A DNA stretch of 64,000 bases from Haloarcula laminariae. GTDB taxonomy: Archaea > Halobacteriota > Halobacteria > Halobacteriales > Haloarculaceae. A model generated the notes under the pieces. The model saw nothing but the letters and a program-made list of their open reading frames with translations. It did not search any database and was not told where the DNA came from. Location of the stretch: NCBI RefSeq assembly GCF_025457605.1, contig NZ_JAMZFY010000002.1:744001-808000 (forward strand), given 5' to 3'. Positions within the stretch are counted from its first letter, which is position 1; every line of letters begins with the position of its first letter. Positions 41,075-44,337 of this stretch are shown in pieces. The translations under genes were made by a program, and so were the position numbers.

Positions 41075-42124
41075 TCAGTGGCGACTATCCCAGCCCGGAG
41101 CGGGCGAGACGCCGGTCCCGGACTCGACCGCCCGGAGGTCGAAGCGGTCGCCGTCGATGGGGACGCCGTCGAAGGGGTCCGAACCGAGCAGGAGCGCCCC
41201 GTCCAGGTCGGCGTAGTCGACCAGCGGCGCGAGGTGGACGGCGGCGGCCAGCGAGGCGCTGGACTCGACCATACAGCCGAGCATCGTCCCGAGGCCGTGC
41301 GCGTCGGCCGCATGGACGAGCCGCCGGGCCGCCCGCGGGCCGCCGCATTTCACGAGCTTGACGTTGACGACGTCGCAGGCCTCGGCCAGCCGGGGAACGT
41401 CCGCGGCGGTCCGGCAGGCCTCGTCGGCACACACCGGTGTCGCCGTCGCGTCGGTGACCCGGCCGAGGCCCTCGATGTCGGCGGCGGCGACGGGCTGTTC
41501 GAGCAGCGTCACGCCGCCTGCTTCCAGCCACCCGGCCTTCTCGACGGCCTCGTCGGCGCCCCAGGCGCCGTTGGCGTCGACCCGCAGCTCCGCCTCGGGT
41601 GCGGCCTCGCGGACGGCGTCGAAGCGGGCCCGGTCGTCGCCGCCGCCGAGCTTCACCTTCAGTATCGGGAAGCCCGCCTCGACGGCCGCTTCCGCTTTCT
41701 CGGCCATCCGCGCTGGCGGGTCCAGACCGACAGTGTAGGTCGTCGGCGGCACCCCGTCGGGGTCCAGTCCCCACTGGCGATACAGCGGGACGCCCAGGTC
41801 GCGGGCGGCGCAGTCGGCGACGGCGACAGTGACCGCGCTGCGGGCCGCCGGCTGGTCGGGCGCTTCCTCGCGGAGCCGTCGCTCGATTCGCTGGCCGGCG
41901 TGGGGAGTCCCGGCTTCGGCGACGGTGTCGAGCAGGTCGGGGAGCGCCGCCGCGACCGACTCGGCCGTCTCGCCGAAGTACGGGGACGGGGCGACGCCGC
42001 CGTACCCCGTGGTCCCCTCGCCGGTCAACTCGACGACGACGGACTCGGAGACCGCGCTGGTGCCGCGGCTGATACCGAACGGCGTCGACAGCGGCAGGTC
42101 GTGGCGGGTGACGGTCCAGTTCAC
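41075..42124 (-). CDS. dgcA: Enolase-superfamily epimerase/racemase, DgcA-like
   Basis: 349 residues, GTG start sharing 4 nt (GTGA) with the preceding DUF1611 gene stop. Enolase superfamily, muconate-lactonising/dipeptide-epimerase branch: KVK (K156, K158), metal ligands D183, E209 (LLEQP), D234 (ADE), then NVKLVKCGG. Alone it would be called L-Ala-D/L-Glu epimerase. Its coupling to DUF1611 matches the DgcN-DgcA D-glutamate pathway, in which DgcA racemises N-acetyl-D-glutamate. Specific substrate is inferred from context. Confidence 0.88.
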   Translation of the reverse strand: MNWTVTRHDLPLSTPFGISRGTSAVSESVVVELTGEGTTGYGGVAPSPYFGETAESVAAALPDLLDTVAEAGTPHAGQRIERRLREEAPDQPAARSAVTVAVADCAARDLGVPLYRQWGLDPDGVPPTTYTVGLDPPARMAEKAEAAVEAGFPILKVKLGGGDDRARFDAVREAAPEAELRVDANGAWGADEAVEKAGWLEAGGVTLLEQPVAAADIEGLGRVTDATATPVCADEACRTAADVPRLAEACDVVNVKLVKCGGPRAARRLVHAADAHGLGTMLGCMVESSASLAAAVHLAPLVDYADLDGALLLGSDPFDGVPIDGDRFDLRAVESGTGVSPAPGWDSRH

Positions 42125-43131
42125 AGTACCGCGTCCAGTACGTCGTCGGGCACCCCGTCCCGGACCGGGTCGGTCGCCGGCGCGCCGATAGCGTCGCCGT
42201 AGGCCGCCACGGCGTCGGTGGCCGCGTCGTCGTCGAGCCCGCGGGTGTTCAGCGCGCCGGCGGCGACCGAGGCCCCGGAGACCGGCGCGGCCATCCGCTC
42301 GTAGAGGTCGGCGTAGTCGGCGGACGGCGGCAGTTCGAACGACTCGTAGCCGTGGACGGCCTCCCGGCCGGCCTCGTGGCACATGACCAGCGCGTCGGGT
42401 GCCGACCCGTGGAGGACGCTCGTCGTCACGCCGGAGTAGGCGGGGTGGGCGAGCGCCCCCTGGCCCTCGACTACTATCAGGTCCAGCCCGACCGGCGTCT
42501 CGACCAGCCGTTCGACCGCGCCGGCGGCGTAGTCGGCGACGACGCGGTCGACGACGATGCCCCAGCCCTCGATGACGACGCCGGTCTGGCCGGTCGGCAC
42601 GACGGCGGCGTCGAGCCCGCGCTCGCGGGCGGCGTCCCGGAGCTCGTAGGCCGTGGTCATCTTCCCCGTCGAGCAGTCGGTGCCGACGGTGGTGACGACG
42701 GTCGCGTCGACCTCGGCGGCGGTCCCATCGGCCACGGAGAGGTCCTCGGGCGGCCTGCGCACGTCGACGAGCCCCCCATCGTGTTCCGTGGCAAGGCTGG
42801 CCAACTCCTCGTCGTCGGCCAGAAAGTAGTGCAGTCCCGAGAGGACCTGACAGCCACGTTCCAGCGCGGCGCGAACGTCGGGCCGCCAGGACTCGTCGAA
42901 CTCGCCGCCGATCGGCGCGATGCCGATGACGAGGGCGTCGACCTCGGGTACGTCGGCCATCGAGGCGACGATAGGGGCGTCCTGTACGTCCGGGACGTGG
43001 TCGGCGACCCGCGTGCCCGCGCCGGCCCGGTCCAGCACCGCGCGGACCTCGTGGTCGCCGTAGCGGAGCAGTCCGACCGCCGTCTTGGCGCGGTCGGGGA
43101 ACGACTCGTGAGCGAGGACGGCGACCTGCAT
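42121..43131 (-). CDS. dgcN: DUF1611 family D-glutamate N-acetyltransferase, DgcN-like
   Basis: 336 residues from MQVAVLAHESF. N-terminal Rossmann-like DUF1611_N, C-terminal P-loop-like domain with GTDCSTGKMTTAYEL (about residue 155 on). DgcN proteins N-acetylate D-glutamate as the first step of a D-Glu catabolic route found in marine bacteria and haloarchaea; the next gene is the partner epimerase. A TTTAGG element 28 nt upstream (43159-43165) suggests a leaderless start here. Older annotations call the family an NAD-dependent epimerase. Confidence 0.87.
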   Translation of the reverse strand: MQVAVLAHESFPDRAKTAVGLLRYGDHEVRAVLDRAGAGTRVADHVPDVQDAPIVASMADVPEVDALVIGIAPIGGEFDESWRPDVRAALERGCQVLSGLHYFLADDEELASLATEHDGGLVDVRRPPEDLSVADGTAAEVDATVVTTVGTDCSTGKMTTAYELRDAARERGLDAAVVPTGQTGVVIEGWGIVVDRVVADYAAGAVERLVETPVGLDLIVVEGQGALAHPAYSGVTTSVLHGSAPDALVMCHEAGREAVHGYESFELPPSADYADLYERMAAPVSGASVAAGALNTRGLDDDAATDAVAAYGDAIGAPATDPVRDGVPDDVLDAVL

Positions 43132-43213
43132 AGGGGTTCGGTCGCGTGGCGAGCGCCTAAAGCTAGGGTCTACGGTCATGGTTGTGTTTAGTTACGTGGT
43201 AAGAGTGGCAAAC

Positions 43214-43410
43214 AGCCAGAAAGCCCCCGCGTTCTCAGCTTTGACTCGCGGCTTTGCCGCTCGTCAAGACGTGGGACCGAAGGTCCCACGCGACCCGCGG
43301 CTCGCTGCGCTCCAGTAGGTGCTTGCGTCGCCGGGGGTCGCTGAGAACGCGGACCCTTTCATTCCACCCAAAGCCAGTTGACCAGCCGGCACGGGTGGGG
43401 CTTTCTGGCT
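43214..43410. repeat. 197-bp nested inverted-repeat element
   Basis: Outer arms of 14 bp, AGCCAGAAAGCCCC (43214-43227) and its exact complement (43397-43410); inner arms of 12 bp, CGCGTTCTCAGC (43228-43239) and its complement (43340-43351). Inside lie a GCGGC-TTT-GCCGC hairpin (about 43248-43260) and a 9-bp hairpin CGTGGGACC-gaa-GGTCCCACG (43270-43290). No ORF fits it. It fills most of the 312-nt gap before dgcN. Could be a MITE-like element or a structured RNA; no target-site duplication is obvious. Confidence 0.65.
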
Positions 43411-43443
43411 CTCTCAGTCAGTTCCTGCTAAAATAAACCCCGG

Positions 43444-44337
43444 TCACGGCACGACCAGCCGCACGGTCCACAGCGACCGCACGGCGTCGGAAAGCGCTGC
43501 TTCCGGGTCGCCGGTCGCATCGACCGCCTTCGTCACCGCCGCGCGCTCGTCGAACTTGTGGATGACCGACCCCTCGCCGACGACGTACAGCCGCTCGGGG
43601 TCGACCTCGTCGATGGCGGCCCGACAGCGGTCGACGTGGCTGGCTATCTGCTGGTCGCGCAGGCGCTCGAACCGGGACTGGGAGAAGCCGCCCTTCGAGT
43701 GCTGGCTCTTGAGTTCGGAGTCGAAGCCGTGAAACGCCGTCCGCTCGCGGCCGTCGTACTCCCCGAGCGCGAACAGGTCCGAGCGGACCAGGGCGACGGT
43801 GTGTTCGCCGGCGGGTTCGAACCACGACCGCTCGAACTGGACGTGGTCGTCCCAGCCCGCGAACGGTTCGGGTGGCGCGGGCACCGAGAGGCAGGCCGAC
43901 AGCAGCCCCGCGTCGTCGGTGACCGCGAGGCACGGGGCGGCGCCGGCGACGGTTTCGCTCCGGTCGCCGAAGGCCTCGCGGACCGCGTCGGGCACGTCGT
44001 GCTCGCCGGCCACGTAGGCGGTGAAGACGCCCTCCCGCTCGGTCTCGAACGACGCCAGCCGGTCGAGGACTTCGCGGACACGCGCCCCGTGGAGGCGTTC
44101 GGCCTCGCGGTCCCCGGCGGCGCCGTCGGCCGACTGCAGGCGCTCGACGCGGTCCTCCAGCTCGGCGACGCGGTCCTCCAGTCGGTTCTCCCGCTGCTCG
44201 GCCCGCTGGCGAGCCGTCGACGCCTCGGCGCGGCGCTCCTCCTCCGCTTCGAGCTGGCGTTCGAGGTGGCGATTTGTCTCTTCGAGCTCGGCGACGCGCT
44301 CCTTCAGCGACGCGCGCCCCAGCAGCCGGTCAAGCAT
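43444..44337 (-). CDS. Vms1/Ankzf1-type (VLRF1) peptidyl-tRNA hydrolase-like protein
   Basis: 297 residues. Residues 1-80 form a coiled coil rich in Glu/Arg heptads; residues about 85-297 form the VLRF1 release-factor-like domain with HSKGGFSQSRFERLRDQQ, where the GxSQ loop (Q220) replaces the eRF1 GGQ. Eukaryotic Vms1 cleaves peptidyl-tRNA on stalled 60S subunits; archaeal relatives are thought to do the same in ribosome rescue. The N-terminal coil could bind the ribosome or dimerise. Confidence 0.85.
   Translation of the reverse strand: MLDRLLGRASLKERVAELEETNRHLERQLEAEEERRAEASTARQRAEQRENRLEDRVAELEDRVERLQSADGAAGDREAERLHGARVREVLDRLASFETEREGVFTAYVAGEHDVPDAVREAFGDRSETVAGAAPCLAVTDDAGLLSACLSVPAPPEPFAGWDDHVQFERSWFEPAGEHTVALVRSDLFALGEYDGRERTAFHGFDSELKSQHSKGGFSQSRFERLRDQQIASHVDRCRAAIDEVDPERLYVVGEGSVIHKFDERAAVTKAVDATGDPEAALSDAVRSLWTVRLVVP

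Follow-up and report, generated by a model that had tools for sequence, protein, structure and literature searches.

A putative IS6-type miniature element of Haloarcula laminariae with a class-wide structured module that may be maintained as RNA

Elements of the IS6 family generate 8-bp duplications and have GG tips and a TGTt motif, and ISfinder examples of the family include MITEs of 227 and 336 bp (PMC7986276). The element described here, of about 260 bp, resembles those MITEs in its two IS6 ends with GG tips and TGTt, its 8-bp duplication and its freedom from a transposase gene; unlike theirs, its interior is a class-wide structured module with no recognisable IS sequence (PMC7986276). It also resembles the MITEs, SMRs and PATEs of Haloquadratum, which are short, non-coding, mobile haloarchaeal repeats with inverted repeats or palindromes; as described, the SMRs lack target duplications and the IS605-derived PATEs lack terminal repeats, whereas framed copies of the present element have both (PMC3119063). 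Membership of the SMRs was rejected on the 8-bp target duplications of related copies, and membership of the PATEs on the terminal inverted repeats. The REP / BIME repeats of enterobacteria are interspersed palindromic intergenic repeats, as is the present element; by description they differ from it in sequence, and the fixed internal loops and IS6 ends seen here set the two apart. A final comparison is provided by QMITE2 of Coxiella burnetii and similar MITEs, which are likewise multicopy and have transcripts predicted to form a stable fold, while the fold considered here, unlike that of QMITE2, is backed by compensatory changes and a wobble asymmetry and extends over a whole class (PMC10969869).

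The element is situated in a 64-kb stretch of H. laminariae DNA (the window), between two genes on the minus strand: a VLRF1-type release-factor-like gene upstream (43444..44337; Pfam acVLRF1, 104 bits, cut-off 27) and a dgcN-like gene downstream (42121..43131; NCBIfam DgcN, 243 bits, under the cut-off of 480). As an earlier note on this DNA had described, the outer arms (AGCCAGAAAGCCCC, 43214..43227, and GGGGCTTTCTGGCT, 43397..43410) are complementary at 14/14 positions and the inner arms (43228-43239 and 43340-43351) at 12/12, and two internal hairpins are present, at 43241-43267 and 43270-43290. The predicted RNA fold of 43190-43440 has an energy of −133.9 kcal/mol on the plus strand (z −8.2 against dinucleotide shuffles) and −135.0 kcal/mol on the minus strand (z −6.9), and 0 of 200 shuffles matched the native fold. 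In the window the arm motif occurs at two sites only, the two arms of the element, where 0 were expected. Chance does not account for the inverted repeats, which are genuine. The earlier note gave the element an extent of 197 bp, 43214-43410, and stated that it contained no ORF. The arms do lie in that interval; the terminal repeats, however, stand outside it, so the element is larger, at about 43180-43439. As to coding, no plausible gene and no transposase gene was found within the copy, but short mechanical ORFs do overlap it, namely a 60-aa TTG ORF (43254-43436) and the terminal part of an antisense ORF of 171 aa (43418-43933).

The terminal repeats, the target duplication and the loss of the second half of the copy are all additions to that earlier description. 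The terminal repeats read GG..GTGTTTAGTTA.. and ..TTTTAGC. On the left, the terminal repeat and its spacer (43180..43213, plus strand) begin with an A-type end (GGTTGTGTTTAGTTACG...), which recurs at a constant distance from the arm in 77 class A ends; autonomous IS6-type elements likewise have the GTGTTTAGTTA of this repeat at their 5′ ends. On the right, the terminal repeat (43411..43439, minus strand) has a B-type end, GG.TTTATTTTAGCAG, and has lost about 5 bases. The remnants of the target duplication, ACGGTCAT (43172..43179) and CCGGTCAC (43440..43447, overlapping the stop codon of the VLRF1-like gene), have decayed to 6/8 identity; this 8-bp repeat was missed by the automatic duplication register because the right terminal repeat is short. 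Inside the left arm lies the first strand of a helix designated P1 (43228..43239), pairing at 12/12 positions with the second strand (43340..43351), followed by an optional double-hairpin insert (43240..43290), formed by the two internal hairpins of the earlier note, that is shared with copies L002 and L021 and missing from most others. The structured module itself was identified by cmsearch with model R1 at 43289..43351 on the minus strand (59.5 bits, E 6.4e−14), the single match in the window.

In full copies the order is frame, arm, module, central hairpin (CCCCTTTCAGTCCCACCC..GGGTGGGACTGAAAGGGG), inverted second module, arm and frame. The nearest copy, L002, has 95% identity and both modules, whereas the window copy lacks the second, its truncated central hairpin (43352..43398) being joined to the right arm. 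By this comparison, the window copy is a one-module deletion derivative of a two-module element. Single-module copies are common. Some copies (L003, L021 and L029) have an additional, recurring double hairpin inserted in the module, for instance GTTCGAAAGGCGC..GAGAGAGC..GCTCTCTC.

It is apparent from a search of haloarchaeal genomes that the element is not single-copy. BLAST of its own genome gave 38 matching pieces, and the arm motif was found there at about 16 sites when chance-looking matches within genes were left out; in all, 49 of the 98 genomes searched, its own included, contained matches. In many copies the frame GG-N-N-GTGTTTA stands at one set distance from the arms, and 12 of these copies have 8-bp direct duplications, with at most one mismatch, directly outside it (eight are perfect). 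The same two ends, with perfect 8-bp duplications, were found in intact IS6-family elements of the genus. The A-type and B-type ends match both ends of such elements at three loci (L249, L257 and L262), and these autonomous elements have a transposase gene in place of the module core. Two 211-aa transposases of the intact elements scored 184 and 182 bits, against an NCBIfam IS6 cut-off of 125.

In the element's own genome the matching IS was seen as a degenerate copy, and a single IS6-type transposase match was obtained (L260), with ends that are related yet not the same. The window copy is therefore probably immobile now. The degenerate IS with the same terminal repeats (L203, G000:C1:1175332-1176017) has ORF fragments that resemble an IS6-type transposase by eye; a Pfam scan of these fragments gave no match. 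A solo frame was also observed (L069, G000:C2:267904-267985): it retains arm remnants and the two IS6-type ends but has lost the core, and the direct repeat GTCGACAGTC flanks it.

The insertion site was compared with those of relatives. Orthologues of the dgcN-like gene were found by tblastn in 28 other genomes of the genus, with the VLRF1-like gene upstream in 22; the upstream gene was unmatched in the remaining six, which are thus uninformative on the insertion site. The ends of the two matches are 35–93 bases apart in the 22 relatives versus 316 in the window. Three of these gaps (G002, G010 and G008) were compared in full and all are empty sites: in G002 and G010 the gap reads ...GTCGTCCCGTAACCCTAGCTTTAGG, and in G008 it is slightly longer, while in the window the element sits between ...GTGCCGTGACCG and ATGACCGTAGACCCTAGCTTTAGG. 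The other 19 gaps, judged by length without base-by-base alignment, are too short to hold the element. The start of the dgcN-like gene is at 43131 (or 43179), and the gap consequently holds a likely promoter of that gene as well. The sequence CTAGCTTTAGG (43157-43167, minus strand), upstream of this start, is conserved in G002, G010 and G008; it is likely to be the dgcN-like promoter, kept intact despite the insertion.

Because copies duplicate 8 bp, intact IS6 elements share their ends and the orthologous site is empty, the element is, on comparative grounds, a non-autonomous IS6-type element (MITE), and the window copy an old, shortened one. Its ends match those of autonomous IS6 elements, its relatives have the 8-bp duplication and it has no transposase gene. 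An IS6-family transposase acting in trans would have moved it to its present site.

The module, about 70 nt in length, consists of the variable helix P1 followed by short helices parted by conserved A-rich internal loops, with conserved unpaired bases GAA/A, GA/A and AA/A as read on the outward strand. Ninety-four distinct 5′ strands of the P1 stem were found, and over 144 distinct stem pairs the mean P1 pairing was 10.6/12 within a copy versus 7.0 between copies. In alignments of 13 and 12 equal-length modules, 11 of the 12 P1 pairs have changes on both sides, and compensatory cells numbered 44–45, as compared with about 11 in shuffles and 3–7 in slid controls. These modules were chosen because they had the same length and an evident stem, and one of them supplied the structure, so pairing percentages lean towards the structure and the compensatory counts are the firmer evidence. 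The outer arms also change in paired fashion in other families (for example, CCTCGAAAG/CTTTCGAGG and CCACGAAAG/CTTTCGTGG).

P1 pairing reaches 100% when the outward strand is read, with G.U as the sole kind of one-sided change; on the inward strand those cells become A.C. When 88 distinct stems with at least 9/12 Watson–Crick pairs were read on the inward strand, A.C exceeded G.T by 34:6 (p 8e−6), and by 23:4 without the commonest position. Both halves have their wobble on the outward strand, so within one element it lies on opposite DNA strands. From this asymmetry we infer selection on an RNA transcribed outward, with the reservation that strand-biased mutation could in part be responsible for it. 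Taken together, the pairing data suggest that the folded shape of the module, probably as RNA, has a role. The earlier note had offered a branched RNA fold and a non-autonomous mobile element as alternatives. The covariation and strand-biased wobble between copies bear out the former, and the many copies, 8-bp duplications, empty orthologous sites and matching autonomous elements bear out the latter, so the two are supported as true together; the case that the note had named as contrary to its reading, a single copy lacking compensatory changes, is contradicted on both points.

The loop pattern of the module was searched for in sampled Halobacteria; it was present in 202 of 391 genomes and 60 of 86 genera, and a reversed-pattern control gave zero among the matches listed. 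Of 295 genomes sampled from the phylum, at least 33 gave a match to the covariance model, all of these inside the order; the count is a lower bound since 17 candidates per genome were scored. A scan of contigs with the 14-base arm pattern gave mostly chance matches in bacteria. Plasmids gave partial matches only, the named carriers including Natrinema, Natronorubrum and Halobaculum; a phage collection gave no match to the element, and none of the viral contigs had one exact module pattern. In agreement with the earlier note, which had recognised no known RNA family, an Rfam search of the window at the gathering threshold returned no family; when an E-value cut-off was applied to five other loci, they matched microRNA models only, far below gathering, and these matches were taken as chance. 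No account of the element or the module came up when the literature was searched with the element sequence, the module motif and keywords. In one genome (G076), modules on contigs C2, C22, C24 and C37 lie within 35–256 bp of a contig start, a position that would follow from assembly breaks at near-identical copies.

We consider it rather probable that the element is an IS6-type miniature transposable element with the class-wide module as cargo, the fold of which is kept since it acts as an RNA transcribed outward. Full copies carry two modules in inverted orientation around the central hairpin, of which the window copy keeps one; because the two are inverted, transcription from either side would give one sense module. 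Such an RNA would most likely serve the element's own life cycle, through transcript stability or processing or through protein binding, and would not be a switch for the adjoining genes. Against this proposal are the decayed 6/8 duplication, the degenerate IS of the same genome and the unbiased orientation of the module: set against their neighbouring genes, 64 single modules were oriented 35:29 and 30:34, a weak test given the crude gene calling.

The same core occurs also on a second, unrelated kind of end. Copies without the IS6 frame have a CTAG boundary, mostly 38–74 bp away from the arm and in many cases on each side (L066, L012, L302, L305, L312 and others, plus family-wide pattern matches). 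The discovery set had 58 CTAGs, 49 of them in one phase of three. Among sequences from a family-wide pattern search, the CTAG-to-arm distance was 2 mod 3 in 96 of 104 (p 1.6e−36), a sample in which orthologous flanks lower the independent number, a few discovery-set loci recur and framed copies were excluded by eye. Every third base of these ends is a purine in about 70–74%, and the signal ends at the CTAG. A coding origin was rejected: the phase is not carried on through the core, TGA occurs in frame without avoidance, and variation is equal at codon positions 2 and 3. At a locus upstream of leuS (L379-L396), the flanks are common to Haloarcula species and the interior modules differ, and in two species (G028 and G031) the flanks adjoin each other without an intervening core. 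Tandem arms were observed in L066, L012, L328, L369 and L370, in which a CTAG-bounded flank and arm are followed directly by another. A broader reading, held tentatively, is that the module represents an undescribed haloarchaeal RNA class within mobile elements, carried on IS6-type and on triplet-stepped, purine-phased CTAG ends, and moved or exchanged by a mechanism not yet described.

The hairpins might instead matter as DNA, with single-stranded or cruciform element DNA being recognised in transposition and pairing selected accordingly. The very stable hairpins on both strands, the occurrence of one core with two unrelated end types and the coreless flanks in two species are in keeping with this. 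It is nevertheless unlikely, since autonomous IS6-type elements with the same ends have a transposase gene and not the core, and outward-strand wobble in both halves is not predicted by a single-strand DNA intermediate.

Less probable again is that pairing is kept without selection, through template switching that corrects one palindrome arm from the other. Changes in P1 nearly always reach full Watson–Crick pairs and entire stems differ between copies, as such correction would have it, but it predicts neither conserved unpaired bases nor strand-biased wobble, and it leaves the class-wide conservation of the loop motif unexplained. An RNA is favoured over palindrome repair because the wobble pairs prefer one strand.

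That the element acts in cis to regulate or insulate its neighbours, here the VLRF1-like and dgcN-like genes, is the least probable reading of all: it lies between two co-directional genes with the module's outward strand as their transcribed sense, but those genes are close together in relatives without the element, the insertion leaves the likely dgcN promoter whole on its downstream side, and the unbiased orientation noted above speaks, within the limits of crude gene calling, against a general cis-regulatory or terminator role.

With an outward-transcribed RNA as the preferred reading, the module, present in roughly half of the haloarchaeal genomes sampled, would constitute a new RNA-like family linked to archaeal mobile DNA, and haloarchaeal genetic systems make its expression and role directly testable.
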